Below are positions 157 to 22,685 of a stretch of 32,715 nucleotides of DNA, one piece after another; within the stretch, counting starts at the first letter, position 1; each line of letters begins with the position of its first letter. Below the pieces are notes generated by a model. That model was not told where the DNA came from, did not search any database, and was given only the letters and a program-made list of their open reading frames with translations. Origin of the DNA: Deltaproteobacteria bacterium (GTDB taxonomy: Bacteria > Desulfobacterota > Desulfobulbia > Desulfobulbales > Desulfobulbaceae); contig JAJRQC010000119.1 in the NCBI GenBank assembly GCA_024280455.1, positions 1 through 32,715 of the forward strand. Reading direction: 5' to 3'. Made by a program: the position numbers and the translations under genes.

Positions 157-1647
157 ATGAACCCTTTATTCCCAGCTTTACAAAAAATTCTGATCATCGG
201 TTCGGGGATCGGCGGCCTGAGTACGGCGATTATCCTAGCCGGACTTGGTCTTGAGGTCCCCGTACTGGAAAAAAACAGGCGGGCGGGCGGGCTCCTGTGT
301 AGCTACACCAGAGACGGCATCGAATGTGAAGTCGGGGTACATTACCTGGGTTCCCTGGACAGGGGCCAGATTCTGCGCCGGTTTTTTGATTACCTGGGCG
401 TGACCGACAGAATCCCGGTCACCCGCATGGGAGAAGACGGGATCATTGACCGCTATCTTTTCGAACCCGGTACTCATCAACCGGCCATATTTGATCTGCC
501 TCCGGGAATGAACCGGTTTGAAGAACAGCTCAGGGTAACCTTTCCCGGCGAACAGAAACAGATAGATGAAATAATCAAACCCATCCGCAAGGCAGCCGAT
601 CAACTGCACGGGCTTGATTTTCTTGATACCGACGGCAATGATTTTTCACTCCTTGACCAATGCCGCTCCCTTGGCAAAATCCTGGATGACCTCCAGGTTT
701 CACCGCGTCTGCGCAGCGTGCTGGCCATTGCCTCTTCCTGGATCGGGGTTCCCCTGGGCGACTGCCCGGCATTTTACCACAACATGGCCCTGGCCTCGTA
801 CATCTCCTCTTCGTGGCGCCTGAACTGCAGTGGTTCCACGATGGCGGATGTTCTGGCCGAACGGTTGCGGGAGCTGGGAGGAAAAATTATCACCATGGCC
901 CAGGTCAGGCGGATTCATGTCCAAAAAAAGATCGTTACCGGGGTGCAGCTCAATTCCGGCGAAGAGCTGGCCGGAGGTACCGTTATCGGCGCGGTCCACC
1001 CCAAGGTCGTTCTGGATATGCTGCCGCGTAAGGGAGCGGTCAGACCGTCGTACCGGCAGCGGATTAGCGGAATCAAAGACACCCATGGCATCTTTTCCGT
1101 CCATGCCCGGATTGATGCTGACGTCCACCCGGAAATCCCCTACAACATTTTTAAAATCGATACCGACCGCAGGGGGAACGTCCCGGATCTCAGGTATTAC
1201 CAGATCAGAAAATGTGAACGCAAAGGCACAAACCTCCTGTCGATTCTAACCTCGGGCAGGGATGAACTCTGGGCGCCTTGGGCGGAAACCAGAACCGGTC
1301 GCCGCGGACAGAAATACGTTAAAGCCAAGATGGACCTTGCCGGGCAGTTGATTCGTGAGGCGGAAGAACTGCTGAGCCCGTTCAAGGATCTGAAAATCCT
1401 TGATGCCTACACGCCCCTGACCCTGCGCGACTGGGTCAATACTCCAGGCGGCAGTGCCTACGGCGTACAGCGTTCCGCCTCCCAGATGCTGGCCACGGCT
1501 CTTTTGAACCGAACCTCGGTCAAGGGGTTATACCTTGCCGGTCAGAGCGTTATGGCCCCGGGAATCATCGGCACGATTATGGGTTCGTTCAGCACGGTCC
1601 AACTACTGCTGGGTCCGGAGGAGTTCAAGGTCAACATACGGCTATAG
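157..1647 (+). CDS. CrtI/RetSat-like FAD-dependent oxidoreductase (phytoene desaturase family)
   Basis: This is a roughly 496-residue flavoprotein of the phytoene desaturase/carotenoid isomerase/retinol saturase group, which oxidises, reduces or isomerises long polyene or acyl chains at the membrane. The N-terminus has the Rossmann FAD motif GSGIGG (about residues 15-20), followed by the acidic residue and RxGG of a dinucleotide fold (VLEKNRRAGG). A GVHYLG motif typical of RetSat/CrtISO relatives lies near residue 60. The C-terminus has the FAD-closing segment GLYLAGQSVMAPG. The ATG at 157 is preferred; an in-frame GTG lies at 148, and neither has a clear ribosome binding site. Length fits the family. 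No phytoene synthase or other carotenoid gene is present. The neighbours are ACP, ketosynthases and radical SAM enzymes, so I infer an acyl or polyene chain substrate. Family is confident; substrate is not. Confidence 0.88.
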   Translation: MNPLFPALQKILIIGSGIGGLSTAIILAGLGLEVPVLEKNRRAGGLLCSYTRDGIECEVGVHYLGSLDRGQILRRFFDYLGVTDRIPVTRMGEDGIIDRYLFEPGTHQPAIFDLPPGMNRFEEQLRVTFPGEQKQIDEIIKPIRKAADQLHGLDFLDTDGNDFSLLDQCRSLGKILDDLQVSPRLRSVLAIASSWIGVPLGDCPAFYHNMALASYISSSWRLNCSGSTMADVLAERLRELGGKIITMAQVRRIHVQKKIVTGVQLNSGEELAGGTVIGAVHPKVVLDMLPRKGAVRPSYRQRISGIKDTHGIFSVHARIDADVHPEIPYNIFKIDTDRRGNVPDLRYYQIRKCERKGTNLLSILTSGRDELWAPWAETRTGRRGQKYVKAKMDLAGQLIREAEELLSPFKDLKILDAYTPLTLRDWVNTPGGSAYGVQRSASQMLATALLNRTSVKGLYLAGQSVMAPGIIGTIMGSFSTVQLLLGPEEFKVNIRL

Positions 1648-1671
1648 CATTTTTTAAAGGAAAAAAACTTC

Positions 1672-2220
1672 ATGCTGCGAATTGCGCTGTTTATCATCTG
1701 CACCCTGTTTTTTCTCTATTTTTCCAGGCGATCCCTGACAAATCCGGGATCGCATGGATTTTACCGTTTTTTTGTCTTTGAGACCATTCTGCTCCTGGTC
1801 CTGCTGAACCATCCCTATTGGTTCAAAAATCCTTTTTCTCCTCTGCAGCTTCTGTCCTGGTTGCTTCTGTTTACCTCAATTGTTTTTGTTCTCCAGGCCC
1901 TGATACTGCTCAAACGATGCGGCGGCCGCGGCAGGCGCGAGGAGATGCCGGAAAACCATCCCTTTGAAAACACCCTCCATATTGTCGACCAGGGATTATA
2001 CCGCTACATTCGACATCCCATGTACAGCTCGCTGCTCCTGCTTGCCTGGGGTGCATTTTTCAAACACATCACCCTGCTCAACATCACTCTGATCGCCCTG
2101 GCCACGGGATTTCTGGTTGCGGCAGCCACCGTAGAGGAGCGTGAGAATATTCGTTTTTTCGGCACAGCGTACAAAGAGTATATACGACGGACAAAGATGT
2201 TTGTCCCCTGGCTGTTTTAA
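1672..2220 (+). CDS. Isoprenylcysteine carboxyl methyltransferase / PEMT-like membrane methyltransferase
   Basis: This 182-residue integral membrane protein has hydrophobic segments near residues 1-17, 27-45, 55-80 and 118-152. The C-terminal half carries the ICMT/PEMT signature: a YRYIRHPMY motif near residue 111, then VEERENIRFFG and AYKEYIRRT near the end. This pattern marks the SAM-dependent methyltransferase fold shared by isoprenylcysteine methyltransferases and phospholipid N-methyltransferases, although bacterial members are often of unknown specificity. The ATG at 1672 follows AAAGGA at a workable spacing. It starts 24 bases after the oxidoreductase, so the two are probably co-transcribed. 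It may methylate a lipid head group or chain end made by this cluster. The alternative is a related NnrU-like reductase fold without methyltransferase activity. Confidence 0.75.
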   Translation: MLRIALFIICTLFFLYFSRRSLTNPGSHGFYRFFVFETILLLVLLNHPYWFKNPFSPLQLLSWLLLFTSIVFVLQALILLKRCGGRGRREEMPENHPFENTLHIVDQGLYRYIRHPMYSSLLLLAWGAFFKHITLLNITLIALATGFLVAAATVEERENIRFFGTAYKEYIRRTKMFVPWLF

Positions 2221-2563
2221 CCCCCATATTTCACAAGCGATCTGCTACAAAGCCTGAAAACATCATGCCTGCTTTGTCACAGCTCCAAAAAGCATCCTCG
2301 AAATATTTCAATATATCTGCGGTCTTTTTGGAGCTGTTCCTCGCATTCACGGCGTTTTCCGACTTTTCGCAACGATCTTTGTGAAAGATGCGGGTTAACG
2401 ATTCCCCAGAAGAAAAAACAAGCCGATACAACTTTTGGTGGCGAGGTTGTTGTGTATTTCCGGTCCTGGTGGTATAAACAGGCGTATTTTTATGCTCCGC
2501 AGGGCTTTGACGAGTGTTCAAGTCCTCACGACTGTCGGTACTCTTTTTCTGTAAGACGATATT
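2221..2563. other. Intergenic region with a 13-bp inverted repeat (2280-2292 / 2324-2336)
   Basis: The 343 bases between the methyltransferase-like gene and the FabZ-ACP gene hold no convincing gene. There is a perfect 13-bp inverted repeat, CAGCTCCAAAAAG at 2280-2292 and its complement at 2324-2336, enclosing 31 bases. A second short dyad, ATCTTTgtgAAAGAT, lies near 2375-2390. There is no T-run after either. These could be regulatory hairpins within a long operon leader or part of an interspersed repeat. A minus-strand frame at 2231-2521 has no family resemblance and no ribosome binding site. Confidence 0.6.
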
Positions 2564-3202
2564 TTGTGGTACTCACTTGTTGAAGTAACAAAAACAGGAT
2601 CAGACGAGATGAACGCCCGGGTGACAACGGACAGGGACTCGCCCTGGTTTTCCGGGCACTTTCCCGAAGATCCGATCCTGCCCGGTATCGGCCTGCTGAA
2701 CATGGTTGCCGATTGTATTGCCGCCGCAAAAGAAGAGACCATCGTCATGGCGGGACTCGGCAGGGTTAAGTTCAGAAAAATCGTCAGACCCGGAGAACAG
2801 CTTGACATTCTCGCTACATCCGACAATAAAAGAGACCAATATACATTCCGGATAACAAGCGGCGGCCAGGATGTCTGCTCCGGAATCATGCGTTTTACAC
2901 CCCAAGAAAACCCTCAGGTTAACAACAGTGAAGTTATGAGCAACGAAATATCCCAGACCATCACCCGAATCGCTGCAATCATCATCGATGAACTCAAGCT
3001 TGAAGACGTAACCCCGGAGACCTTTGATGCCGACCTTGATCTGGTCGATGAAGTGGGCATTGACTCCATGGATCTGGCAACCATCGCCCTGGTCCTCCGG
3101 GACGAGTACGGCATCCGGATAGACGAGGATGATTATCCCAAGCTGACCACCGTTCGGATCATTGCCGAGTACATCGACAACAAGCTCAAAAGCAGCGAAT
3201 AA
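2564..3202 (+). CDS. FabZ-like hotdog domain fused to acyl carrier protein
   Basis: This 212-residue protein has two parts. Residues 1-112 are a FabZ/FabA-like hotdog domain with the signature GHFPEDPILPG (His32 is the usual catalytic histidine). Residues 126-212 are an acyl carrier protein with the attachment motif GIDSMDL (Ser168). A short linker of about 15 residues joins them. The glutamate that normally completes the FabZ active site, five residues after the PG, is Asn46 here, so dehydration may be weak or lost and the domain may only bind or modify acyl-ACP. The TTG start at 2564 is chosen because it gives the MWY... beginning usual for this subfamily; ATG at 2609 would cut into the fold. 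The next gene starts 5 bases after the stop, implying one operon. Hotdog-ACP fusion is unusual because these are normally separate proteins. Confidence 0.85.
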   Translation: MWYSLVEVTKTGSDEMNARVTTDRDSPWFSGHFPEDPILPGIGLLNMVADCIAAAKEETIVMAGLGRVKFRKIVRPGEQLDILATSDNKRDQYTFRITSGGQDVCSGIMRFTPQENPQVNNSEVMSNEISQTITRIAAIIIDELKLEDVTPETFDADLDLVDEVGIDSMDLATIALVLRDEYGIRIDEDDYPKLTTVRIIAEYIDNKLKSSE

Positions 3203-3207
3203 GTCCC

Positions 3208-4266
3208 GTGCAGACCGAAAAACAGCCGGGATATAAATTCTCCGAGATTATAGCCGATCCCGTCATCAGAAAGCGGTGGGAAAAGGTACAAAAATACTTT
3301 TTTCTCCGTGAATCCACCTATGACATGAGCAACCGGTGCAATATCCGCTGTGAAGGCTGCTATTATTTTGCCGGTGAGAGTAAAAAACAATTTGCCGACG
3401 AGAATCGGGACCCGGCCGCCTGGAAGCAGCTCTTTGAGGCGGAAAAAGAACGGGGCATAACCTTTGTCGTCCTGGCCGGGGCCGAACCTGCCCTGGCTCC
3501 GGAACTGTGCCGGGTCTGCTTTGACGTAATTCCGCTGGGGGCCATTGCCACCAACGGGTTGAAACCGATCCCGCAGGACATCGACTACCGGATCCACATC
3601 TCGACCTGGGGCAACGATACAACCAGTCTTGCGGTCAGAAAAGCACCGGACATGCTCGTTCGGCAGATGGAAAATTATAAGGATGATCCCAGGGCTGTTT
3701 TTGTCTACACCTTCTCGCCGGTCAACATTGACGAGGCCCGGGAGGTCACCGAGCTGCTGGCGAAAGGCGGGCAGCAGATCACCTTTAACATGTTTTCCGC
3801 CCCGGTCGGCTACAACGGCCACCTCCGACATACGCCGGAGACGCTGGCCCAAACCCGCCGGGTCATGACCGAGCTGCTGGCGGAATTTCCGACAACCGTG
3901 CTCTTTTCACCCTATAATATCCTTGCCCATACTGAAGAAAAAGGACTGCACGAGCTGTTTTCCTGTTCCTACCCGCGGATGAACCCATCCACGGATATCG
4001 GACTGGGCCGCTCATTCCGGCAATACCGTACCGACCTGGCCTGGGACCGTGAGGCGGCCTGCTGCGTACCGGATACCGATTGTGATGACTGCCGCCATTA
4101 CGCCGCCGGCAGCGCCGTGGTGACGGCGCGGATGTACCGCCATGCCACCGACCCGGCAACCTTTTCCGCCTGGCTCGACTACGTGGACACCTATCTTGCA
4201 GTCTGGGTTCGTGGGTACGACAAGGGAAAAAACCTCTGTGAACACCCGGTGATCCCGATTGGTTAA
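3208..4266 (+). CDS. Radical SAM protein, first of a tandem paralogous pair
   Basis: This 352-residue radical SAM enzyme would cleave SAM at a [4Fe-4S] cluster to make a 5'-deoxyadenosyl radical. The cluster motif is CNIRCEGC (Cys44, Cys48, Cys51), preceded by YDMSNR. A second cysteine group near the C-terminus (Cys285, Cys286, Cys292, Cys295, pattern CC-x5-C-x2-C) could hold an auxiliary cluster or metal. The GGEP-like SAM-binding segment is present as AGAEP near residue 93. The start is a GTG at 3208, 5 bases past the FabZ-ACP stop, with no obvious ribosome binding site, so translational coupling is likely. The following gene is a clear paralogue with the same N-terminal and C-terminal cysteine arrangement. 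No PqqA or peptide substrate gene is visible, and the lipid context suggests an acyl-ACP or lipid substrate. The reaction is unknown. Confidence 0.88.
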   Translation: MQTEKQPGYKFSEIIADPVIRKRWEKVQKYFFLRESTYDMSNRCNIRCEGCYYFAGESKKQFADENRDPAAWKQLFEAEKERGITFVVLAGAEPALAPELCRVCFDVIPLGAIATNGLKPIPQDIDYRIHISTWGNDTTSLAVRKAPDMLVRQMENYKDDPRAVFVYTFSPVNIDEAREVTELLAKGGQQITFNMFSAPVGYNGHLRHTPETLAQTRRVMTELLAEFPTTVLFSPYNILAHTEEKGLHELFSCSYPRMNPSTDIGLGRSFRQYRTDLAWDREAACCVPDTDCDDCRHYAAGSAVVTARMYRHATDPATFSAWLDYVDTYLAVWVRGYDKGKNLCEHPVIPIG

Positions 4267-4295
4267 CAGATATTCCAACGCCGAGCACAAAAACA

Positions 4296-4324
4296 CAAAA
4301 CTCAAAACCCAGAACTCAAAACCC
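4296..4324 (+). repeat. Short A/C-rich direct repeat ahead of the second radical SAM gene
   Basis: ACTCAAAACCC occurs at 4300-4310 and again at 4314-4324, a 14-bp period in an A/C-rich tract that ends directly before the ATG at 4325. If the upstream TTG at 4259 were used, this tract would be translated into a low-complexity lysine/asparagine-rich stretch that the paralogous upstream protein lacks. I therefore read it as a non-coding spacer repeat. Confidence 0.6.
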
Positions 4325-5323
4325 ATGATAACCGTCAGTTCACTGCTCGATAACCACTGGTATGAGCGCTATAAAAAAATATCCCGGCTCAATATCCGCA
4401 GTTCCATTTACGATGTAACCGACCGCTGTAACCTGCGCTGCAAGGGATGTTTTTTCTTTTCCTCAGGTGAGCATGAACGGGCATCGGAAGAAAAGGACGT
4501 CGGCAAGTGGCATGTCTTTGTTGAAAAAGAGATGGCACGCGGGGTGAACCTGGCCATCCTCATCGGCGGAGAACCGACGCTTTGCCTGGACCGGATCGAA
4601 GCGTTTTACAAACGGCTGCCCACCTTCTGCGCCACCAACGGGTTGATCAAAGTCCCCCGGGACCGCTTTCCCGACATGATGGTCGGTCTCTCCCTGTGGG
4701 GTGATATCGAGGACGAGACCATTCTGCGCGGCAAGGATACCTTCAAGATTTCCAGTGCCAACTACGAGGGGGATCCTCACGCCTACTACCTGTACACCAT
4801 TACCCCCAAGCAACTCGGCAAGACCGAAAAGATCATCCGTAAAATTAAAGACGTCGGGCTCAAGGTCCACATGCAGCTGCTGTCCAATGACGAGGGTGTG
4901 GACGGATTTTCATGGCAGCCGGATGAACTGATCGCCATTCGGGCAGAAATGGATGACATGCTGGACAAGTATCCGCAAACGGTGATCTCCTCAAAGTATT
5001 ATCACGAGATCATCACCACCGGTAAGATGCTGGATCGGGAATTCGGCTGGATGGAATGCCCCTCGGTGACTGAACCGATCGACAAGAGAGAGCCCCGACC
5101 AAAACGGCTGACCAACTTCATCCGCTGGGCCTCGGATCTTGAGACCATGCACCGCTGCTGTACCTCGGAAACCCGTGACTGCTCGACCTGCAAAGACGGT
5201 GCGGCCCATATGAGCTGGGTCATGGTCAACAAACGGGCTCATATCAAGACCAGCAAAGACCTGCAGAACTGGATTGAGGTGTACGAGATGTTTGCCAAAC
5301 TTTATCAGTTCATCCCCTGGTAA
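4325..5323 (+). CDS. Radical SAM protein, second of the tandem pair
   Basis: This 332-residue radical SAM protein is paralogous to the gene before it. The cluster motif is CNLRCKGC (Cys35, Cys39, Cys42) after YDVTDR. IGGEPTL near residue 81 is the canonical SAM-binding GGE motif. A C-terminal group, Cys278, Cys279, Cys286 and Cys289 (CC-x6-C-x2-C), matches that of its neighbour. The ATG at 4325 is preferred over a TTG at 4259, because the TTG would add about 22 residues encoded by a direct-repeat tract. The shared architecture suggests gene duplication with both copies retained, either as a heteromer or for two successive radical steps. The neighbouring ketosynthases and ACPs point to chemistry on an acyl chain; the substrate is not known. 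Confidence 0.88.
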   Translation: MITVSSLLDNHWYERYKKISRLNIRSSIYDVTDRCNLRCKGCFFFSSGEHERASEEKDVGKWHVFVEKEMARGVNLAILIGGEPTLCLDRIEAFYKRLPTFCATNGLIKVPRDRFPDMMVGLSLWGDIEDETILRGKDTFKISSANYEGDPHAYYLYTITPKQLGKTEKIIRKIKDVGLKVHMQLLSNDEGVDGFSWQPDELIAIRAEMDDMLDKYPQTVISSKYYHEIITTGKMLDREFGWMECPSVTEPIDKREPRPKRLTNFIRWASDLETMHRCCTSETRDCSTCKDGAAHMSWVMVNKRAHIKTSKDLQNWIEVYEMFAKLYQFIPW

Positions 5324-5351
5324 CAGGATAAATGGCCACAGGCACCACATC

Positions 5352-5412
5352 TTTGCACAATCGAGCCTACCCGCATAGGGAGAGCTATAGCGACCCGGCA
5401 CGATTGTGCAAA
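5352..5412. repeat. 12-bp perfect inverted repeat upstream of the first ketosynthase
   Basis: TTTGCACAATCG at 5352-5363 and its exact complement at 5401-5412 enclose 37 bases, with three further base pairs possible just inside. It lies in the 173-base gap between the second radical SAM gene and the first ketosynthase gene. There is no following T-run. It could be an operator, an internal mRNA-processing hairpin or a palindromic repeat. No confident promoter was found in the gap. Confidence 0.7.
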
Positions 5413-5496
5413 TCTGCAGCACCTGAGACCATTTACACAAATAAGTATTTAAGATCACAGAGTCGAACACCCTGTGGTAGCTTACGGTAACAATAT

Positions 5497-6753
5497 ATGG
5501 GGGAAAAAGACGCGGTCATTGTTGGCTTTGATGCCATCTCCCCGCTGGGAAGCGATCTGGATACCCAGTGGCAGCGCGCCCTTGAAGGCAAAAGCGGTAT
5601 CGGCCCGCTCACCCGTTTTCCACTTGCCCCTGATTTTCCCGTTTCCATTGCCGGCCAGGTCCCGGATATTGACCAGAAAAATAAAAAATACCCGTTCCTG
5701 ACCCCCCGCCACCAGGCGGCCTGGAGTTCGCCGGTCTTCAAGTATTCCATGCTTTCGGTGGCCCGGGCACTTGACCGCAGCCGAATTGAAATCACCCCTG
5801 ATATCGCCCCAAGAGTTGCGGTGACCTACAGTTCAGCCATCGGCGGCCTGAATGCGGTCCTGACCGCCGACAGACGACTGCAGGCTGAAAACAAGCTGCC
5901 CCTGCCCTATACCAATCCCAACGCCTGTATCAACATGGTCGGCGGAAAAATCGCCATTCAAACCGGGGCCCAGGGACCGATTACCACCACCATTACCGCC
6001 TGCGCCACCGGTCTGACTTCAATCATCATCGGCGCCATGTTTCTGGCTCAGGGCCGGGCCGATGTCGTCATCTGCGGGGCGGTTGACTTTGCCCTGGTTG
6101 AGCCGATCGTGGCCGGATTCTACACCATGAACGGGGTGTATAACCCAAAAGAGGGCCGGGAGAACGACCCGCCGCAGACCGCCAGCCGCCCCTTTTCCCC
6201 GGATCGTCGGGGTTTTGTTATTTCCGAAGGCGCAGGAGCGCTGATTCTGACCACCAGAGCATTTGCCCGCAGCCATGGCCTGCAGGCCGAAGCTGAACTT
6301 GCCGGATGGGGTATGACCTCGGATGCCCATCACTTTGTTGCCCCGCATCTTCCGACGGTGACCCGGTGCATGGAGGATGCAATCATTGATGCCGGACTGG
6401 CGCCGAATGATATTGATGCGGTCAACGCTCATGCCGCCTCGACCAGAGTCGGCGACAAGGTAGAATACGACGCCCTGCAGGCAGTATTCGGCAACAACCT
6501 GCCACCGGTCAGTGCCAATAAATCACTCATCGGTCACGCCATGGGCGCCTCCAGCGTCATCGAGACCATTTTCGCACTCCATGGCATGCAGGACGGTATA
6601 CTGCCGCCAACCATCAACTATTCCCCGGATCCTGAAATCGAGATTGATTGCGTGGCCGAGGGGAAACGGGCGGTCGACCAGGAATTTATTTTAAAAAACT
6701 CCTTTGGCTTCGGCGGCTGTAACGCCTGTGCGGTTTTTCGAAAGATCGGTTGA
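5497..6753 (+). CDS. Beta-ketoacyl-ACP synthase, FabF type (first of two)
   Basis: This 418-residue condensing enzyme of the KAS I/II (FabF) family elongates acyl-ACP with malonyl-ACP by decarboxylative Claisen condensation. The complete active site is visible: nucleophile Cys169 in TACATG, His312 in NAHAAST, Lys342 and His347 in NKSLIGHAMGAS. The C-terminal glycine-rich loop NSFGFGGCN is present. The usual NAHGTST is NAHAAST here, a mild change. Length is normal. The ATG at 5497 is used, with a weak ribosome binding site. The second ketosynthase starts 13 bases after this stop. Pairs of FabF-like proteins are typical of aryl-polyene and type II PKS loci, where one may be a chain-length factor. 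Here both have a cysteine, so both could be catalytic. It is probably specialised and not the housekeeping FabF. Confidence 0.93.
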   Translation: MGEKDAVIVGFDAISPLGSDLDTQWQRALEGKSGIGPLTRFPLAPDFPVSIAGQVPDIDQKNKKYPFLTPRHQAAWSSPVFKYSMLSVARALDRSRIEITPDIAPRVAVTYSSAIGGLNAVLTADRRLQAENKLPLPYTNPNACINMVGGKIAIQTGAQGPITTTITACATGLTSIIIGAMFLAQGRADVVICGAVDFALVEPIVAGFYTMNGVYNPKEGRENDPPQTASRPFSPDRRGFVISEGAGALILTTRAFARSHGLQAEAELAGWGMTSDAHHFVAPHLPTVTRCMEDAIIDAGLAPNDIDAVNAHAASTRVGDKVEYDALQAVFGNNLPPVSANKSLIGHAMGASSVIETIFALHGMQDGILPPTINYSPDPEIEIDCVAEGKRAVDQEFILKNSFGFGGCNACAVFRKIG

Positions 6754-6765
6754 AAAAAAGAACAT

Positions 6766-8031
6766 ATGAAGGCGCCAAAAAACAGAAAGGTCTTTGTGGT
6801 TGGCTACGAGACAGCCACCGCCCTCGGCAACACCTTTGCCGAAACCTGGCAGGGGGCAGTTGACGGCCTGGCCGGTTTTCGCAGACTCACCCGATGCGAG
6901 ACCACGAGCCGCTCCAATGTGGTCGGTGAGATTCCCGACTGGGAACCGAATACCTTTTCCTATGTTACCCGAAAAGAGGCCTCACTCTGGAACGCGGCCT
7001 ATGTCTTCCTCACCATGGAGGTCTGTCGAAAGGCACTTGTCCACGCGGATCTTGAGATAAACGCGGACACCGGGCCGCGAACCGGCTGCCTGATCGGCTC
7101 AGCCTTAAACGGAACAGATGCCTACCGCATTGCCATGGACAGCTATGTCAACCAGGGGCCGTTTAAGGTCAGCCCCTATCTCCTGCCTAACGTCTGTGCC
7201 AACCTGCCGGCCGGCAAGGCCGGGATGCTGCTTGGCTTCACCGGCCCGATCTTCTCGCCCCAGGGGGCCTGCGCCTCGGGTAATCACGCCATTGCGATCG
7301 GGGCAAGGATGATCCGGGACGGAGACTGTGATTTTGTGCTGGCCGGAGGGGTTGAAACCTGCCTGGTGCCTGAAATCATCCAGGGTTTTGCCAACATGCT
7401 GGCCACCATCAAGGTCGGCCCCAAGGACCGGGCCGCAAATGATCCCACCCAGGCCTCGCGGCCCTTCAGCCTTGACCGCAAAGGCTTTGTGCTGGCGGAA
7501 GGTGCGGGGGTTGTGGTTCTTGCTGCAGAAGAGATGATACTGGCCCATGGCCTGAAAAAACGAGCTGAGATTGCCGGCATCGGCTGGAACTCGGACGCCC
7601 ATCATTTTACCCGGCCGAATTCAGAAACGGTTACCAGGGCCATGCTGGATGCCATTGACGACGCTGAGATTTCTCCAGCCGCCATCGGCGCGGTCAATGC
7701 CCACGGCACCTCAACTCCCAGGGGCGACAGTACCGAGGTTGAATGCCTACGTTCCATCTTCGGCAGCGGCCTTGAAAAAATTCCGATCTCGGCCAACAAG
7801 TCCCAGGTCGGCCACAGCCTGGGGGCATCGGCGGCCATTGAGGCGGCGCTTGCTATCGAGGCCATGCAACAGGGGATTGTTCTGCCCACGGTCAATCATA
7901 TCCCGGATCCCGCCTTCAGCGATCTGGATGTGGTGCCCAATATGGCCCGCACCCATGCCCATGAGTTTGTGCTCTCCAACTCATTTGGCTTTGGCGGCAC
8001 CAACTGCTGTATAGTCTTCCGAGGAGTGTAA
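6766..8031 (+). CDS. Beta-ketoacyl-ACP synthase, FabF type (second of two)
   Basis: This 421-residue paralogue of the preceding ketosynthase has a full catalytic set: Cys169 in QGACASGN, His313 in NAHGTSTPRGD, Lys345 and His350 in NKSQVGHSLGAS, and the C-terminal NSFGFGGTN loop. The nucleophile motif differs from its neighbour (ACASG against ACATG), and N-terminal identity by eye is modest, so this is an old divergence and not a recent duplication. The start is ATG at 6766, 13 bases after the first ketosynthase; the thioesterase gene follows 12 bases after its stop. The tight spacing argues for one transcript. The pair may form a heterodimer, as reported for aryl-polyene ketosynthases, but both could act independently on different chain lengths. 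Confidence 0.93.
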   Translation: MKAPKNRKVFVVGYETATALGNTFAETWQGAVDGLAGFRRLTRCETTSRSNVVGEIPDWEPNTFSYVTRKEASLWNAAYVFLTMEVCRKALVHADLEINADTGPRTGCLIGSALNGTDAYRIAMDSYVNQGPFKVSPYLLPNVCANLPAGKAGMLLGFTGPIFSPQGACASGNHAIAIGARMIRDGDCDFVLAGGVETCLVPEIIQGFANMLATIKVGPKDRAANDPTQASRPFSLDRKGFVLAEGAGVVVLAAEEMILAHGLKKRAEIAGIGWNSDAHHFTRPNSETVTRAMLDAIDDAEISPAAIGAVNAHGTSTPRGDSTEVECLRSIFGSGLEKIPISANKSQVGHSLGASAAIEAALAIEAMQQGIVLPTVNHIPDPAFSDLDVVPNMARTHAHEFVLSNSFGFGGTNCCIVFRGV

Positions 8032-8042
8032 AAAATAAAAAG

Positions 8043-16276: not shown

Positions 16277-16723
16277 ATGGAGCAACAAACACCGCCAACA
16301 AGAGAAAACGGAATAACCGATGGTGTGGATATTGTCGGGTATCTAGTCAACGACGAAGGAAATTATGAACTGATTTCCGGCCCTGGCTGGCAGCCGGTCA
16401 ACATCGTCAACCGCCAGGCCTGGCAGGAAATCGAAAAACAAATTGAAGTGTCAAAAGATCACGTCGACTCCGGCCGGGTCAGCTGTCTGCACTATTACAT
16501 GACTATCAACCAGATGAATATCGGTCTTCTGGCCGGGTACACCAACCAGTCACGGCTGCGGGTCCGGCTGCACCTTATTCCCTTTTTCTTCAAACGGCTG
16601 GGTCCAAACACCCTGAAAAAATATGGCGACCTGTTTCAGGTCTCAACGGATGACCTCAAAAACGGCAGAATCAAGGCCCCGATTTACGATGCCGGACAAC
16701 AGGCAGGGCAGCGGCGTGATTGA
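16277..16723 (+). CDS. Protein of unknown function overlapping the BtrH-like gene
   Basis: This 148-residue soluble protein has no signal peptide or membrane helix. It has an acidic N-terminal part (DIVGYLVNDEGNYELISGPG) and a basic, hydrophobic middle (RLRVRLHLIPFFFKRLG). No family is recognised. Codon use and composition match the cluster genes. Its end overlaps the BtrH-like gene by 35 bases, an arrangement that implies translational coupling and a shared function, for example as a partner subunit of the acyltransferase. The ATG at 16277 has no clear ribosome binding site. Confidence 0.65.
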   Translation: MEQQTPPTRENGITDGVDIVGYLVNDEGNYELISGPGWQPVNIVNRQAWQEIEKQIEVSKDHVDSGRVSCLHYYMTINQMNIGLLAGYTNQSRLRVRLHLIPFFFKRLGPNTLKKYGDLFQVSTDDLKNGRIKAPIYDAGQQAGQRRD

Positions 16724-17747
16724 TTTTCCACACCGACAGTCCGCCCATTGCGAAAGCGGCGTTGCCGCCAACCTGCTGACCTGGAAAGGTCTGGAAATCA
16801 CGGAGGCCATGGCCTTCGGCATCGGCAGCGGTCTGTTTTTCGGCTACCTACCCTTTATCCGCCTAAACGGACTGCCGCTGGTTACCTACCGGGCGGCTCC
16901 CGGAAATATATTAAAGCAGCTTGAAAAAATTTCCGGAATCACCATGGATCAGAAAAAATTCCGGGATACAAACCAGGCAATGGCGGAGCTTGATGCAGCC
17001 CTTGAGCAGGGGATTCCGGTGGGCCTGCAGACCGGGGTTTTCTGGCTGCCCTATTTCCCCCGGGCCCTGCGTTTTCATTTCAACGCCCATAATCTGGTGG
17101 TGTACGGTAAAGAGGGCGACGAATACCTGATCAGCGATCCGGTGTTCCCTGCCCCGGTTCGCTGTCCGGCAAAAGATCTGGCCAGGGCCAGGTTTGCCTC
17201 GGGTGCGCTTGCGCCAAAGGGCAAGATGTACTCTCTGAGGAGTGTACCGGAACAACTCGACTACAACCGCCATATCCCGGAGGCCATCGGATCGGCCTGC
17301 CGAATGATGCGTTCCAGCCCTTTTCCCCTGATCGGCGTCAAAGGCATCCGGTTTCTTGCCGGACGGCTGGAAAAGTGGCCCGGGCGGCTGGGCCGGGAAC
17401 GGGCAGATCTGCATCTGGGTCATGTTGTCCGCATGCAGGAGGAAATCGGCACCGGCGGCGGCGGATTTCGCTACATGTACGTGGCGTTTCTCCAGGAAAG
17501 CGGCGAGAGGCTGCAGGATCCGGTTGTACACGACTGCGCCGCCCTGCTCACTGAAGCTGGAGATACATGGCGGCAGTTCGGGGTCATGGCGGCCCGCATC
17601 TGTAAAAATCGAGCTCAGCCGGACGACACCTACCCGGCCATGGCCGAAACGATTCGAAACTGCGCCCAACTGGAGGAAAAGGTCTTCCAGGAGCTGAATC
17701 ATTGGGTCAAGCAGCAGGGCCAAAGCAAAGCACAGGTCACAAGGTGA
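16689..17747 (+). CDS. BtrH-type acyltransferase (BtrH N-terminal and DUF4872-like)
   Basis: This 352-residue protein starts at the ATG at 16689; an upstream ATG at 16623 would read through the neighbouring gene's frame. The N-terminus matches the BtrH N-terminal domain: HCESGVAANLLTWKG with candidate nucleophile Cys21, then NAHNLVVYG (His134) and LISDPVF (Asp150), a papain-like Cys-His-Asp set. The C-terminal half resembles the DUF4872-like partner domain. BtrH in butirosin synthesis moves an acyl group from an ACP onto an amino sugar. By analogy this enzyme could transfer a chain from the ACP encoded downstream to an amine or sugar acceptor. Its stop overlaps the ABC ATPase start by 4 bases (GTGA). 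The family call is fairly firm and the acceptor unknown. Confidence 0.82.
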   Translation: MPDNRQGSGVIDFPHRQSAHCESGVAANLLTWKGLEITEAMAFGIGSGLFFGYLPFIRLNGLPLVTYRAAPGNILKQLEKISGITMDQKKFRDTNQAMAELDAALEQGIPVGLQTGVFWLPYFPRALRFHFNAHNLVVYGKEGDEYLISDPVFPAPVRCPAKDLARARFASGALAPKGKMYSLRSVPEQLDYNRHIPEAIGSACRMMRSSPFPLIGVKGIRFLAGRLEKWPGRLGRERADLHLGHVVRMQEEIGTGGGGFRYMYVAFLQESGERLQDPVVHDCAALLTEAGDTWRQFGVMAARICKNRAQPDDTYPAMAETIRNCAQLEEKVFQELNHWVKQQGQSKAQVTR

Positions 17748-18499
17748 ACAGCCATGAACATGCCATCAGAGCTGAAACACTGGTGCACCGGTATGCAAAA
17801 GCCGGCGAACCGGCCTTGAATGACTGCAGTCTGACTGTACGCAGGGGTGAATTTTACGGCCTGCTCGGCCCCAACGGGGCCGGAAAGACAACGATCATAG
17901 CCCTGTTCAGCGGCCTGTTTATGCCCGACAGCGGTAGAATTTCGATCATGGGGATGAACTTTTGTGACCATGCCCGGAAAATCAAGCGGATCATCGGGTT
18001 GGTTCCCCAGGAAACCGCCCTGTATGACAAACTGACCGCCCGGGAAAATCTTGTTTTTTTGGGAAAGCTGTACGGTTTGAACGGCAGACGCCTCCGGAAC
18101 CGGGTATCCGAATGCATTCAGATTGCCGCCCTCAGTGAGCATGCAGACCACCGGGTTTCCACCTTTTCCGGAGGGATGAAACGAAGACTGAATCTGGCGG
18201 CAGGCCTGCTCAATGATCCGGATCTTCTCTTTCTTGATGAACCGACAGTCGGCATTGATGCCCAGTCCAGGAATCTGATCCATCAACAGCTGCTTCAGCT
18301 CAACCGGAACGGAACCACGATCCTCTACACAACCCACTACATGGAAGAAGCCCGGAAATTATGCAGCCGGATTGGTATCATCGACCGAGGCCAGCTGCTC
18401 ACCGAGGGTACTCCCGACCAATTACTTGAACAGGAAGGACAAACTGATCTGGAAGCTCTTTTTCTCAACCTGACCGGGCAACAACTTCGTGACACCTGA
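17744..18499 (+). CDS. ABC transporter ATP-binding protein
   Basis: This 251-residue ATPase of an ABC-2 type exporter has Walker A GPNGAGKT (residues 42-49), a Q-loop VPQE, signature FSGGMKRR near 140, Walker B LLFLDEPT near 161 and an H-loop TTH. The GTG at 17744 is chosen because it overlaps the upstream stop in a GTGA junction; a TTG at 17702 would extend into the preceding coding sequence. It energises export by the permease encoded next. Sequence type (DrrA/CcmA-like) fits lipid, polysaccharide or drug export. Genomic linkage to an acyltransferase and ACP suggests a lipid or acylated product as cargo. Confidence 0.93.
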   Translation: MNSHEHAIRAETLVHRYAKAGEPALNDCSLTVRRGEFYGLLGPNGAGKTTIIALFSGLFMPDSGRISIMGMNFCDHARKIKRIIGLVPQETALYDKLTARENLVFLGKLYGLNGRRLRNRVSECIQIAALSEHADHRVSTFSGGMKRRLNLAAGLLNDPDLLFLDEPTVGIDAQSRNLIHQQLLQLNRNGTTILYTTHYMEEARKLCSRIGIIDRGQLLTEGTPDQLLEQEGQTDLEALFLNLTGQQLRDT

Positions 18500-18526: not shown

Positions 18527-19807
18527 ATGATTACATTTATTGCCGCTGTCAGCAAAGAAGTCCTGCTCCTGGGCCGGGACCGGGCTGGCCTGCTGGTCCT
18601 CTTTCTCATGCCGGCAATCCTAGTTGTGATCATTACTCTGGTCCAGGAAAATGTTATGGAACTCACCGGCCAGAGCAAAACCAGGATGGTCTTTCTTGAT
18701 CTGGACGATGGCGATCTCGGCCCCACCCTGTACAGACAGCTGGCAACCGGCAACCTTGAAGGCATTGTCTGGGACAAGAAAAAACACAATGCTGCAGAGC
18801 TGAAGGCAGCAGTTACCGCAGGCAAATACCAGGTTGGGATAGTTTTGACGCCTGGTGCTTCCGCTCGATTTCACGCACGGCTGACAGAGGAGTTCAGGAA
18901 CGTCCCGGGGGAACCTGGGAGTTCTCAGGCAGTGCCCTCAGTACGGGTCTTTTTTGATCCCGGTATCATGGCCGGGCTGCGGTCAGGGATAACGGCCCGG
19001 CTGCAGATGGCTGCACAGGCGGTTTCAGTGGAGGCAAAGATGAAAAACCTGGAAAGGATACTCAAGACTACGATGGCCGAATTCAATATTCCCAAAGGAT
19101 TCTCGCCCCTGCCGGAAGCCGGGCTGACAGACCTCCTTACCAGCCCCCTGCTGACCATCAAAAACGCCGGGACAATTGACAACGAAAAAGAGTATAATCC
19201 GGTCCAGCAGAATGTCCCGGCCTGGGCACTGTTCGGCCTGTTTTTTACCGCAATCCCCATTGCCGGCTCGATCCTGCAGGAACGCAAATCAGGAATTCGG
19301 ATCCGCCTGAACTCCCTGCCGGTCTCTCCTCTGCTCCTTATGGGCGGGAAGATAGGGGCATATATAGGGGTCTGCCTGTGCCAGTTCCTGCTAATCGGCC
19401 TAATCGGTATATGCCTGTTCCCGTGGATAGGACTGCCGTCATTTACCATTGGCGCCCATCCGCTGGGAGTGGGACTGATTGTCCTCTTTGCAAGTCTTGC
19501 CGCCTGCGGATACGGGATATTTCTGGGCATGGCCTGTAATACCTATGAACAAGCCTCTACCCTGGGCGCAACTTCAATTGTGGCCGCGGCCGCCATCGGC
19601 GGGATTATGGTTCCTGTCTATGCCATGCCCGGAATCATGCAGCATCTCAGCATTCTCTCCCCCCTCAACTGGGGACTGACGGCCTTCCATGACCTGCTGA
19701 TGCGGGACGCACCTCTTTCCGAAATATTTGATGATCTTGCCCGCCTGAGCATCTTTTTTATGATCACCATGATTTTTTCCTGGAAACTGGCGAAAAGTCG
19801 GCTATAA
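18527..19807 (+). CDS. ABC-2 type transporter permease
   Basis: This 426-residue membrane permease has one N-terminal helix (about residues 19-40), a large extracytoplasmic domain (about 45-230) and five or six C-terminal helices (about 233-252, 279-305, 315-335, 348-370, 400-420). This is the standard ABC2 half-exporter layout with a conserved ERKSGIRIRLNSLPVSP loop coupling to the ATPase. It starts 27 bases after the ATPase gene. The large periplasmic domain is of the YhgE/DrrB-like type. With the ATPase it probably exports the lipid or acyl product of this locus; cargo cannot be read from sequence. Confidence 0.9.
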   Translation: MITFIAAVSKEVLLLGRDRAGLLVLFLMPAILVVIITLVQENVMELTGQSKTRMVFLDLDDGDLGPTLYRQLATGNLEGIVWDKKKHNAAELKAAVTAGKYQVGIVLTPGASARFHARLTEEFRNVPGEPGSSQAVPSVRVFFDPGIMAGLRSGITARLQMAAQAVSVEAKMKNLERILKTTMAEFNIPKGFSPLPEAGLTDLLTSPLLTIKNAGTIDNEKEYNPVQQNVPAWALFGLFFTAIPIAGSILQERKSGIRIRLNSLPVSPLLLMGGKIGAYIGVCLCQFLLIGLIGICLFPWIGLPSFTIGAHPLGVGLIVLFASLAACGYGIFLGMACNTYEQASTLGATSIVAAAAIGGIMVPVYAMPGIMQHLSILSPLNWGLTAFHDLLMRDAPLSEIFDDLARLSIFFMITMIFSWKLAKSRL

Positions 19808-19891: not shown

Positions 19892-20155
19892 ATGACCCCA
19901 TTGGAACAGGAACTCCTGCAACTCATCTGCACAACATGTAACCTGAGCGAGGTGGAACTTAACAAGGTTCATGCCGATGATCCCCTGATCGGCCCGGACT
20001 CTCCCCTTGGAACCGACTCCCTGGATGCCCTGGAAATCGCGGTCACGATCCAGCAGGAATACGGAGTGCGAATGGACTCGGAAAATACCAGCCGGGAAGT
20101 TTTGCAATCCCTGTCAACCCTTGCCGAGTATTTAAAAAGCAATCAGGCGGCATAA
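19892..20155 (+). CDS. Acyl carrier protein
   Basis: This 87-residue acidic protein has the 4'-phosphopantetheine attachment motif GTDSLDALEI (Ser43), four-helix ACP length and a typical DxxL...DSL spacing. It is a second carrier distinct from the ACP fused to the FabZ-like domain at 2564. It ends the + strand transporter block and faces the KAS III-like gene tail to tail across 73 bases. It would carry the chain used by the BtrH-type transferase or the convergent ketosynthase. The 73-base gap contains a perfect 12-bp palindrome CCTGGATCCAGG but no T-run. Confidence 0.9.
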   Translation: MTPLEQELLQLICTTCNLSEVELNKVHADDPLIGPDSPLGTDSLDALEIAVTIQQEYGVRMDSENTSREVLQSLSTLAEYLKSNQAA

Positions 20156-20228: not shown

Positions 20229-21383
20229 TTACACAACCGTCAGCAGGACATAGGCAACGGAGAACCTGCCGCTTTCCGGGATAAAACCGAGAATCCGCTC
20301 CCCTTTTTTCAACCTGCCCGAAGAAAAAAGTTCCGCCAGCATGATATAGAATGAGGCGGATCCGGTATTCCCCCTGGTTGCCAGATTGGTAAACCAGCGT
20401 TCCTGCGGAATAGCAAAATTAATTTCCTGTAATTGCCCGGCAAGGGCATTTCTGAAATATTCCGAAGAGTAATGGGGTAAAAACCAGCCTATCTCCTCCC
20501 CTTTGAGGCCATGTTTGCTGATAATCGACGGCAGGCTCCGGCCGACCAGCGCCCTGGTCACCTCCCGATTCAACAGGCGGGCATCCTGTTTTATGGTGAA
20601 CACGCCCTCTTTCGCCGCCGTCCCCTTCCGCGCACACTCGCGCCAGCCCGTAAGGCTTCCATCCGCCTGTTTTACCGCCCCGGCATACATGCAGGCATCC
20701 AGGCGGTGGGCGTGGGAGAGAATTTCAATCCAGTCGATTCTCAGGCTGAGTCGATCTGCGGCAGGTTCTCTTTTTATGAGCACGGCCCCGGCCCCGTCGG
20801 AGAGCATCCAGCGCAGAAATTGTTCTTCAAAAGAAAAGGCAGGATGTTTTTCCCCCTGTTCCATCCCCTTTGCCCCGCCGCCCATGGCTTCAAAAAAATC
20901 CGTGCGGATAAAGGTTGAGGCCAGTTCGGATCCGGTGGCAACGGCATTAGTCGTCTGGCCGAGAGCCACCGACATGGCCCCGTATTTCAACGCCGTTATA
21001 CCGGTGACACAGACCCCGGCCGTGCTGACAATCTCGCACGGGCCGATGCCCAGTTCCCCCTGTACCATAGCGGCATGCCCGGGCATCAGCTGATCCGGAG
21101 AAGAAGTACCGCAGCAGAGGCACTGAATTTTTTCCGCGATCCGTTCGTTCTTTTCCGTAAGTCTGCCCACAGCCCCGGCCGCAAGCTGGGCATTGGTATG
21201 GGTCAGACCGCCGGTAGCCGGATCAATGGCATAATGCCTGCTCTCTATCCCGTTACCCGCAAGAATTATCTGCCGGGTTCTGGCCGAGACCCGGTCCACG
21301 GATCCGAGATACAGATCCAGCTCGTTATTGGCAACCGGTTTGCCCGGCAAAAAATCGGATACATCTGTAATATATGCTTGCAT
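20229..21383 (-). CDS. Beta-ketoacyl-ACP synthase III-like protein (DarB/StlD-like)
   Basis: This 384-residue thiolase-fold condensing enzyme has the KAS III triad: Cys125 in TAGVCVTG, His304 in FLPHYSSE and Asn339 in RGNTGSAS. The beginning, QAYITDVSDFLPGKPVANNELD, resembles the DarB/StlD branch that condenses two long acyl units (dialkylresorcinol or cyclohexanedione formation) more than housekeeping FabH. No DarA-like aromatase is in the window, so a resorcinol product is not supported. It follows the B12 radical SAM gene with only 3 bases between stop and start, so the two form an operon. Length is slightly longer than FabH (about 320) and fits the branch. It could initiate or join chains in this pathway. 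Confidence 0.88.
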   Translation of the reverse strand: MQAYITDVSDFLPGKPVANNELDLYLGSVDRVSARTRQIILAGNGIESRHYAIDPATGGLTHTNAQLAAGAVGRLTEKNERIAEKIQCLCCGTSSPDQLMPGHAAMVQGELGIGPCEIVSTAGVCVTGITALKYGAMSVALGQTTNAVATGSELASTFIRTDFFEAMGGGAKGMEQGEKHPAFSFEEQFLRWMLSDGAGAVLIKREPAADRLSLRIDWIEILSHAHRLDACMYAGAVKQADGSLTGWRECARKGTAAKEGVFTIKQDARLLNREVTRALVGRSLPSIISKHGLKGEEIGWFLPHYSSEYFRNALAGQLQEINFAIPQERWFTNLATRGNTGSASFYIMLAELFSSGRLKKGERILGFIPESGRFSVAYVLLTVV

Positions 21384-21386
21384 TGA

Positions 21387-22685
21387 CTATAGTTGTGCGT
21401 TGTCATGGCTGTCTGCCAGGACTTCAGCGTAGAGTGTATAAAATTTCTTCTCGTCGAGCCGGGTTGGCACTACGGCATTGGTCAGGGTATAATAATCAAG
21501 ATTATGATTGGTAATCCGGTGCTGCTGCTCGTGATAGAGCGCTGTTCCGGGCAGCGGAGTCATCACTGTAACCATGGGCAGATCAATCCGTGTTTCCGAC
21601 AGATATCCGCTCAACCGATCAAAATCCGGCTCATCATAATCAGGAGAAAGAATAAAGTCTCCCACAATGGTGATGCCGATATCATGCAATATTCGTATGG
21701 CCTCGGTATTCATTGCCACCTGATTGGCTTTATTCATGGCCGCCAGACTGCTGTCGCTCACCTCTTCAAAACCGATGATAACGGCCCGCAATCCGATCTC
21801 TTTCCAGGCCTGCAGCATTTCCGGATGGCGAACCACGGTATCGGAACGGATATCAGCCAGATACTGTTTTCTAATTCCGGCCTCCCCGATAGCCCGGCAA
21901 AGCTGCATTGCCCGCTGCGGATTACCGAAGGTGTTGGCATCAACAAGCCGGATCACCGGCACATTCGGCAGCAGTTGAATGTCCCGGAGAACGGCATCAA
22001 TGGATTTCGTCAGGTAACTGCCGCCGGTCTGTCCCTTGATAGAGCAAAAAGAACAGCGATGGGGACACCCGTAGGCCGAGGCAACAAAACCCATGTTTAT
22101 GCCCAGTTTTTCAAGAATATAATGTGAGCGATAGCGGCTGACCAGCTGATAGGCAGGCGGATTATCCATGACCAGATCATGAATATCGGCACGGATGGCC
22201 GGGCGGTCAAGCTGACTGCCGGGCCGGGTTCGAAGCACGCCGGGCGGAATTTCCTTTTGTTCCGTTCCCTCCTCCAGGGCTGTCACCAGCCCGGCAAAAC
22301 TCTTCTTGCCGATACCCACAACAATATAATCGACGACAGCCCGGTTGAAGAATTCAGGATCACTGCTGGCGTGGATGCCGCCAACCACAACGGTTGCCCG
22401 GCAGCTCTCTTTGACCTGGGCGGCAATGTTCAGCATGGTGTTGGCCTCACAGGTCACGCCGGTGATCCCAACCACATCCGGACGTAAGTCAGACAGTTCC
22501 ACCTCAAGGCCTTCCGGGTCTGCCTTCAAGTCGACAATACGGACGGAGTGATGAAGAAGATTCCCGGCCAGTTCCTCCAAGGCCAAAGGTTCCCCCCGAA
22601 AAATCTGTTTAAGTGAGGTTATACCGTAGCGTTCTTCTGGAATACTGCGCCCGCAATTTGGTGGATTAACAAGAAGAATATTCAT
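21387..22685 (-). CDS. B12-binding-domain radical SAM protein
   Basis: This 432-residue enzyme starts at ATG 22685 (MNILLVNPPN, the usual beginning), with AGGG about 9 bases upstream on the minus strand; a longer frame to 22823 is less likely. Residues 1-140 form a cobalamin-binding Rossmann-like domain with VVGGIHAS. The radical SAM domain has the cluster motif CPHRCSFC (Cys207, Cys211, Cys214). The C-terminal part includes GFEEVSD and DFILSPD segments common to BchE/HpnJ-like enzymes. The family performs methylations or ring and chain rearrangements on lipids, tetrapyrroles and hopanoids. The histidine of a classic DxHxxG cobalamin motif is not evident. Co-transcription with a KAS III-like ketosynthase points to acyl-chain chemistry. 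Confidence 0.88.
   Translation of the reverse strand: MNILLVNPPNCGRSIPEERYGITSLKQIFRGEPLALEELAGNLLHHSVRIVDLKADPEGLEVELSDLRPDVVGITGVTCEANTMLNIAAQVKESCRATVVVGGIHASSDPEFFNRAVVDYIVVGIGKKSFAGLVTALEEGTEQKEIPPGVLRTRPGSQLDRPAIRADIHDLVMDNPPAYQLVSRYRSHYILEKLGINMGFVASAYGCPHRCSFCSIKGQTGGSYLTKSIDAVLRDIQLLPNVPVIRLVDANTFGNPQRAMQLCRAIGEAGIRKQYLADIRSDTVVRHPEMLQAWKEIGLRAVIIGFEEVSDSSLAAMNKANQVAMNTEAIRILHDIGITIVGDFILSPDYDEPDFDRLSGYLSETRIDLPMVTVMTPLPGTALYHEQQHRITNHNLDYYTLTNAVVPTRLDEKKFYTLYAEVLADSHDNAQL

Follow-up and report, generated by a model that had tools for sequence, protein, structure and literature searches.

The locus analysed here raises the question of what is made by a bacterial gene cluster in which ketosynthases (KSs), acyl carrier proteins (ACPs), radical S-adenosylmethionine (SAM) enzymes and exporters are found together. 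The cluster lies on contig JAJRQC010000119.1 (G000:C133) of a Deltaproteobacteria bacterium, and the stretch of DNA that was analysed (the window) is this complete contig of 32,715 bases, which belongs to a genome of 4.15 Mb that is 99.85% complete and 4.83% contaminated. The original prediction saw in the cluster the source of an exported, unusual acyl lipid, possibly cyclised or polyunsaturated, and compared the locus with aryl-polyene loci and with the candidate ladderane loci of anammox bacteria. The reading that we favour, with a probability of roughly 0.64, is that the window represents the right half of a type II polyketide synthase (PKS) locus for an exported flexirubin- or arcuflavin-like lipid, in which a polyene acyl chain is joined by an ester bond to a ring formed by DarB. 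We infer this product and the reactions leading to it from the functions of the families involved; the gene content, the conservation of the locus, the KS phylogeny and the exchange of darA for a B12-binding radical SAM gene were established directly.

Every enzyme listed in the original prediction (viz. two FabF-type KSs, a ketoacyl-ACP synthase (KAS) III, two ACPs, dehydratases, a thioesterase, a CrtI-like protein, radical SAM enzymes, a BtrH-type protein and exporters) was found, all of them at positions 148–22823, confirming its observation; its interpretation is partly supported. A dedicated type II system for an exported, unusual acyl product is supported: the two FabF-type KSs, termed here KSa and KSb, form a joint clade (100/100), the synteny of the locus extends widely across the Desulfobacterota, and a family with a ladderane-related short name (TIGR04072) is represented in the same genome, on a contig that synteny places next door.

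Genes for a Polyene Chain and for a DarB Ring

Because the window is an entire contig, the left end of its cluster is cut off. In the relatives G001, G017, G050 and G035, further genes of the same kind lie to the left of the window's first gene, the CrtI-like gene, whose counterpart in G017 and the locus L093 comes immediately after a gene of the family TIGR04072. Contig C113 of the window's own genome carries genes for an LpxL-type acyltransferase, a DegV/Dak2 protein, an AMP-ligase, a B12 radical SAM enzyme, a lipoprotein-like protein, LolA, the ketoreductase FabG, an ApeP-like dehydratase and a 723-residue fusion of a KS with a chain-length factor (CLF), whose second half matches PF13723. 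The last gene, which stops 245 bases short of the end of the contig, encodes a TIGR04072 "rSAM_ladder_B12" protein (384.2 bits against a cut-off of 360). By synteny, C113 is the putative left half of a larger locus of which the window is the right half. The co-occurrence of the modules can be seen without reliance on this junction, since KS/CLF, TIGR04072, darA, darB and the radical SAM core stand together on a single contig in G001, as do KS/CLF, TIGR04072, the CrtI-like gene, darB and the B12 enzyme in L093. To the left of the cluster part of C113 (L089, about 1900–11200) are genes which we take to resemble a phosphonate transport and C-P lyase operon.

The KS of C113 is the sister of the flexirubin-type KSs of Chryseobacterium and Aureispira clusters (100/99), in a tree from which the long row APEKS_L062 was left out and for which the program warns of long branches. 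The dehydratase of C113 reaches 21.7 bits against the ApeP-like model (below the cut-off of 27) and matches the structure 6qsr, presumably ApeP, at E 0.0012. Best matches of the G017 orthologues are likewise below cut-off for LolA (LolA2_flexi, 89.5 against 125) and the ligase (4-coumarate-CoA ligase, 106.5 against 334.7), and the G017 orthologue of the further B12 radical SAM enzyme of C113 (C113 21258–22523, minus strand; L090 6261–7523) is below every NCBIfam cut-off. The whole locus contains five radical SAM enzymes, viz. the tandem pair rS1 and rS2, the B12 enzyme beside darB and two B12 enzymes on C113.

Homologues of the CrtI-like protein, among the matches listed, share 44–72% identity in Desulfobacterota loci and 26–28% in three loci of Chryseobacterium and Epilithonimonas (L104–L106). 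In the latter, the gene lies near a ketoreductase, a KS, an acyltransferase, LolA, a deacetylase and a dehydratase, with KS/CLF also in L105 and L106; one open frame of L105 is presumably an ammonia-lyase. An annotated plasmid cluster of Aureispira holds a like set with an aromatic ammonia-lyase, a thioesterase, a chain-length factor, a deacetylase and LolA. The deacetylase, acyltransferase, LolA, glycosyltransferase and exporter of the present locus match the flxP–U genes, which the account of Chitinophaga pinensis flexirubin in PMC3992019 suggests to export the ester of polyene and dialkylresorcinol (DAR). Although a starter ligase is absent from the window, as originally stated, a ligase-like gene is present in the genome, on C113, and the argument that a classic aryl polyene is unlikely for want of a ligase is not supported, in view of this gene, of its neighbours LolA, the ketoreductase, the ApeP-like dehydratase and KS/CLF, of the flexirubin-type affinity of the C113 KS and of the occurrence of CrtI-like homologues inside flexirubin-type clusters.

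Genes of the DAR type occupy the right part of the cluster. Counts out of 20, here and below, refer to regions that were fetched because they hold rS1 and were drawn from 21 and 29 positive genomes (overlapping sets); each was cut at 20 kb or where its contig ended, and the lower counts are therefore lower bounds.

16277–16723, plus strand: small conserved protein preceding darH, without Pfam match (4 of 20 regions)
16623–17747, plus strand: DarH, a BtrH-related acyltransferase by its NCBIfam name (NF053550, 468.9 bits, cut-off 300; 4 of 20)
17702–18499, plus strand: ATPase of an ABC exporter (PF00005, 2.7e-32)
18527–19807, plus strand: ABC-2 permease (PF12698, 8.7e-33)
19892–20155, plus strand: second ACP, in a DarC-like position (PF00550, 5e-7)
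20229–21383, minus strand: KAS III of the DarB/StlD family (NF005293, 539.6 bits, cut-off 450)
21387–22685 (alternative end 22823), minus strand: B12-binding radical SAM enzyme, in the place of darA (PF02310, PF04055)

A dialkylresorcinol-type product is indicated, because the KAS III belongs to the DarB/StlD family (it scores 440.5 against the stricter DarB model NF053539, below the cut-off of 550) and the BtrH-type protein is DarH, two assignments that the original prediction had not made. The carrier protein, the BtrH-type protein and the ABC exporter all stand beside DarB, as in the list of Azoarcus dar genes in Table 1 of PMC3949708, where darC, darI, darF, darE (BtrH-like) and darB appear together.

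A B12 Radical SAM Gene in the Place of darA

From two acyl chains, DarB forms a cyclohexanedione by condensation, and DarA oxidises this to a resorcinol. DarA was not found in C113 or in the window, and the best match in the genome (26%, on C101) is unlinked. In its place stands the B12 radical SAM gene, whose stop codon lies 3 bases ahead of the start of darB. Within the order, relatives of DarB (E ≤ 1e-40) were found at 100 places, in 99 of 257 genomes. Upstream of darB, the window's B12 radical SAM gene is present at 62 of these and a DarA-like gene at 34, both occur together at none, and 4 places, with 0, 2, 2 or 222 bases of contig upstream, were not judgeable; the mutual exclusion holds in all 96 judgeable places. 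The B12 gene is on the same strand as darB with 4–426 bases between the aligned parts (7 bases in 27 of the 62), and the DarA-like gene is 15–265 bases off. An initial count of 108 loci (67 with the B12 gene, 37 with darA, 4 with neither) was reduced by eight that were repeats or outside the darB search (L054, L092, L093, L095, L096, L097, L099 and L100; 5 B12, 3 darA). No NCBIfam model names the DarA-like gene; its label is based on its position and on homologues of 35% identity directly beside darB-like genes in all three of the Streptomyces plasmids found.

The association was also examined from the side of the B12 enzyme. Among 395 genomes sampled across the phylum, 46 match it at E ≤ 1e-60, and 19 of these score at least 567 bits, the next scoring at most 277. 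All 19 orthologues (7 of them from genomes of the order already counted among the 100 places) have darB directly downstream and lack darA, and none of the 11 paralogues whose surroundings were read, out of the other 27 matches, adjoins darB. Hence, in the sample examined, the enzyme is a dedicated partner of DarB, and the 62/34/0 exclusion together with this adjacency (19 of 19 against 0 of 11) indicates that it appears to replace DarA.

In a DarB tree with a Prevotella plasmid DarB as outgroup (no DarA-like annotation adjoins it), from which 4 of the 100 places were omitted as covering less than 90% of the query, the B12 kind and the darA kind form the two sides of one branch (99/97), a pattern that fits a single exchange with later spread. 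Both kinds occur within the window's own genus, darA in G001 and G002 and the B12 enzyme in G000, G003 and G006. The host is probably an oxygen-avoiding anaerobe; oxygen avoidance alone is insufficient to explain the exchange, since darA is present in the same genus.

A tentative extension of these results, which we hold at somewhat less than even odds, is that a B12 radical SAM enzyme not described before replaced the flavodoxin-like aromatase DarA as the dedicated partner of DarB in the Desulfobacterota, so that the ring would be finished by radical chemistry; that, with rS1 and rS2, this enzyme is the mark of a new family of polyene-resorcinol lipids modified by radical enzymes; and that the "ladderane-like" clusters of the Desulfobacterota are branches of the aryl-polyene/flexirubin superfamily. 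It is rather unlikely that the enzyme is instead a ring-tailoring C-methyltransferase and no aromatase, the ring remaining a cyclohexanedione or becoming aromatic without an enzyme. In favour of such tailoring, methylation is the usual reaction of B12 radical SAM enzymes, the enzyme scores best against the families HpnR (177.4 bits) and BchE (111.7 bits), below their cut-offs of 650 and 481.35, and profile searches of solved structures match the methyltransferase TokK (7kdx, 2e-6) and an unnamed radical SAM chain (9ccb, 5.7e-8). Against it, the exclusion of darA at every judgeable place suits an exchange better than an addition, though common descent can also yield exclusion. Among the matches listed in a search of the open literature, which covers few subscription journals, no description was found of a B12 radical SAM enzyme in the place of DarA or of such a radical-SAM polyene-DAR locus. 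The exchange is exact and testable, with both forms inside one genus.

The Conserved Core and Its Ketosynthases

The core of the cluster (rS1, rS2, KSa, KSb, a thioesterase and a PKS-type dehydratase) lies to the left of the DAR genes. It is listed here with the dehydratase and ACP that precede it, all on the plus strand:

2564–2935, plus strand: hotdog dehydratase, FabA/ApeI-like (PF07977, 1.1e-7; 19 of 20 regions)
2936–3202, plus strand: first ACP (PF00550, 7.7e-9; 19 of 20)
3208–4266, plus strand: radical SAM enzyme rS1 (20 of 20, the regions being chosen by rS1)
4259–5323 (likelier start ATG 4325), plus strand: radical SAM enzyme rS2, a paralogue of rS1 (20 of 20)
5497–6753, plus strand: FabF-like KSa, Cys/His/His motifs intact (own clade 100/100; 20 of 20)
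6766–8031, plus strand: FabF-like KSb, Cys/His/His motifs intact (own clade 99/100; 20 of 20)
8043–8522, plus strand: YbgC/FadM-type thioesterase (TIGR00051, 84.1 bits, cut-off 68.7; 20 of 20)
8545–9330, plus strand: PKS-type dehydratase, PS-DH (PF14765, 7.7e-9; 20 of 20)

With rS1, rS2, KSa, KSb, the thioesterase and PS-DH jointly present in all 20 regions, the cluster is no chance gathering of genes; homologues scattered without synteny, one of the two outcomes that would have refuted the original prediction, were not seen. Of the genes known from C113, TIGR04072 and the further B12 radical SAM gene are each present in 13 regions, the ketoreductase in 12, KS/CLF in 11, and the ligase and LolA in 10 each; the CrtI-like gene is found in 3 and the DAR genes in 1–4. 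Across the phylum, rS1 is detected (E ≤ 1e-15) in 29 of the 395 genomes; the region of G012 holds none of the cluster genes.

The two radical SAM proteins are paralogues with 28% identity, both with the CxxxCxxC motif and additional invariant cysteines; in rS1, the motif and C285, C286, C292 and C295 are invariant across 35 sequences. Neither exceeds the cut-off of any NCBIfam family, and profile searches of solved structures give distant matches to SkfB (1.6e-8), PqqE (0.0035) and the tetraether synthase Tes (0.0086) for rS1 and to SkfB (0.0029) for rS2. As none of the three L104–L106 genomes has rS2, the tandem pair does not belong to flexirubin clusters in general. The locus thereby offers two uncharacterised radical SAM families with a link to acyl-carrier chemistry. 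The hotdog dehydratase scores 22.4 bits (1.5e-4) against the ApeI-like model PF22818, below its cut-off of 28.5. It shares a single open frame with the first ACP (2564–3202), and relatives such as G017 have a separate ACP frame; the single frame may be a real fusion or an assembly effect.

In the KS tree, KSa and KSb form clades of their own, with FabF rows as nearest neighbours (86/73); a grouping within housekeeping FabF, the other outcome that would have refuted the original prediction, was not seen. An ordinary FabF operon is rejected by these clades, by scores below the FabF equivalog cut-off of 493.75 (KSb 357.4, KSa 344.5) and by the presence of the genome's own FabF elsewhere, on C126 (645.8).

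Proposed Pathway and Its Alternatives

By the functions of the families involved, the following route may be proposed. The ligase of C113 would load a starter acid, and the polyene would be built by KS/CLF, FabG and the ApeI- and ApeP-like dehydratases. KSa and KSb, with the thioesterase, PS-DH, rS1 and rS2, might produce or alter either the starter or a second acyl chain. DarB would condense two chains to a cyclohexanedione, on which the B12 radical SAM enzyme would act in the stead of DarA, by C-methylation or dehydrogenation. DarH would then join the polyene and ring parts, and LolA, the MMPL protein and the ABC exporter would carry the product outwards.

Several observations weigh against this reading of the locus. 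The join of C113 to the window is by synteny, and no exact end overlap was found between the two contigs. The absence of an aromatic ammonia-lyase, as claimed originally, is upheld for the entire genome by a search with PF00221 (as a control, it has matches in 5 of 14 genomes; no chorismatase search was made). The KSs of the core are closer in the tree to FabF than to the polyene KSs: the rows nearest the KSa+KSb clade are E. coli FabF, the genome's own FabF and one further KS (86/73), and KSa and KSb hence resemble an old, separate offshoot of FabF. On the DarB tree there is a single change between the darA and B12 labels, and the repeated exclusion may thus go back to one event. AlphaFold models are poor, with a mean predicted local distance difference test (pLDDT) score of 57.8 for the B12 enzyme (5 sequences) and 61.3 for rS1 (4 sequences). 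Among 57 relatives, counted by hand, rS1 is accompanied by DarB in 15 and stands alone in 6; a further 9 have only DarB, and 27 have neither (Fisher p 0.0009, uncorrected for kinship and assuming that all 57 were in the search of the order). Lastly, the distance between darB and the core is about 80 kb in G008, the two are on separate contigs in G310, G056 and G085 (in the last, darB is paired with the B12 gene), and in the genome of L093, whose completeness is not given, polyene and DAR parts are present, with no rS2 orthologue found.

The arrangements in G310, G056, G085 and L093 also favour a rival reading, in which two independent pathways stand side by side, one (the radical SAM/KSa/KSb core) for a lipid of a membrane or of the outer membrane and the other (the polyene-DAR genes) for a pigment-like compound; the fetched regions of G085, G121 and G394 likewise hold the core without the polyene KS or DAR genes. 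We regard this separation as distinctly unlikely, since the core and the polyene KS share the fetched region in 11 of the 20 genomes, core, polyene and DAR genes are together in G001 and G050, and absence from fetched regions is weak evidence in view of where these regions end.

Compared with these, a product of the kind suggested for the clusters for type II fatty acid synthesis (FASII) of Kuenenia and Desulfotalea (ladderanes, lipids cyclised in a similar way, or polyunsaturated hydrocarbons) is very improbable, because DarB, DarH and the flexirubin-type KS/CLF fit another product better, in spite of the TIGR04072 member above cut-off and of the gene kinds shared with these clusters by published lists (PMC4790861, PMC2649909).

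Other Genes of the Window

Also present are genes absent from the list of the original prediction (viz. the ICMT/PEMT-like methyltransferase, the GT25 protein, the methyltransferase fused to MMPL, the polysaccharide deacetylase and PagL). The remaining genes of the cluster are:

148–1647 (likelier start ATG 157), plus strand: CrtI/amine-oxidase-like flavoenzyme (PF01593, 3.7e-22)
1672–2220, plus strand: ICMT/PEMT-like membrane methyltransferase (PF04191, 5e-7; 1 of 20 regions)
9863–10591, plus strand: GT25-like glycosyltransferase (PF01755, 4.6e-6; 7 of 20)
10601–13684, plus strand: MMPL exporter with a fused SAM methyltransferase domain (PF03176, 2.7e-16; PF13489, 7.9e-13)
13671–14486, plus strand: polysaccharide deacetylase-like protein (PF01522, 1.5e-27; 14 of 20)
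15404–16036, plus strand: PagL-like lipid A deacylase (PF09411, 4.8e-14; 4 of 20)

The best matches of the CrtI-like protein in a named scan are, among those listed, metagenome-assembled genomes of Desulfobulbaceae, Desulfocapsa, Desulfocapsaceae and plain Deltaproteobacteria. A role as carotenoid desaturase is rejected: its best score among the CrtI/CrtD models shown is 95.5 against a cut-off of 549.7, and its near relatives sit in acyl-chain clusters. The ICMT/PEMT-like gene adjoins the CrtI-like gene also in L092, L094, L095 and L096. The MMPL part and the methyltransferase part of the fused exporter are each present in 12 of the 20 regions and both in 11; G184 has the methyltransferase part only and G102 the MMPL part only.

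Genes to the right of 22823 are rejected as members of the cluster, the Fic and GlgC1 genes (the sole ones tested) being present in none of the 20 regions. A Fic-domain protein (23101–24639) and a PIN-domain protein (25709–26134) lie in a stretch of G+C about 0.44–0.47, compared with about 0.54, and a tRNA-Arg (26253–26329) adjoins it; this stretch may be an inserted segment. Two neighbouring GlgC-like nucleotidyltransferase genes follow at 26410–28925.

Comparison With Known Systems

The short name of TIGR04072 presumably refers to ladderanes, and C113 and the window together hold the gene set of candidate ladderane loci, viz. a TIGR04072 radical SAM protein, fatty acid synthesis genes, a tandem radical SAM pair and a CrtI-like gene. 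In Kuenenia stuttgartiensis, Table 2 of PMC4790861 lists for kuste3335–3352 a glycosyltransferase, CrtI-like protein, ACP, FabZ, FabG, two radical SAM proteins, ligase, FabF and methyltransferase, and Kuste3351 is described as deacetylase-like in PMC2649909. With this cluster and that of Desulfotalea psychrophila the present locus shares, by the published gene lists, two adjacent radical SAM genes, a CrtI-like gene, FabZ, ACP, FabG, a ligase, FabF paralogues, a methyltransferase and a deacetylase-like protein, besides the TIGR04072 family name; it differs in that the published list is without DarB or DarH and in that the KSs of the window retain their Cys/His/His motifs. Ladderanes themselves are not supported as the product: Rattray et al., as presented in PMC2649909, described synteny with D. 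psychrophila, which yielded C31 polyunsaturated hydrocarbons and no ladderanes, and the Cariaco study, in its account of ladderane-type clusters, annotated them in Desulfobacterota and many other non-anammox phyla, their function there not being known (PMC9902471). The named scan of the CrtI-like protein (two peptide patterns) included no anammox locus among the matches listed, which is not evidence of absence. By the present results, the "ladderane-type" loci of Desulfobacterota may be systems of the polyene/DAR type, a statement that we do not extend to anammox bacteria, and a chemical expectation (a polyene with a DarB ring) can be given for those Desulfobacterota loci that genome mining labels "ladderane." Should the clusters of anammox bacteria turn out to be related, the problem of ladderane formation would shift from fatty-acid desaturation towards polyene-type PKS chemistry.

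With B12 radical SAM enzymes of the HpnR/BchE type, the enzyme beside darB shares the B12-binding and radical SAM domains and its best NCBIfam scores, but it is far below both cut-offs and its orthologues examined all adjoin darB. The Azoarcus arcuflavin arc/dar genes share with the window a single block of BtrH-like protein, ABC ATPase and permease, ACP and DarB; they differ in that darA adjoins darB and a chorismatase serves the starter, whereas darA is lacking here (a chorismatase was not searched for). The flexirubin clusters (Chitinophaga pinensis flx/dar; Chryseobacterium, Aureispira) share with the present locus KS, KS/CLF, FabG, dehydratases, thioesterase, ligase, LolA, polysaccharide deacetylase, acyltransferase, glycosyltransferase, exporter and DarB, and in L104–L106 also the CrtI-like gene. 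The present locus is distinguished from them by a genome in which no ammonia-lyase was found, by the fusion of its KS and CLF, by its five radical SAM enzymes, by the replacement of darA and by a host related to the Desulfobulbales.

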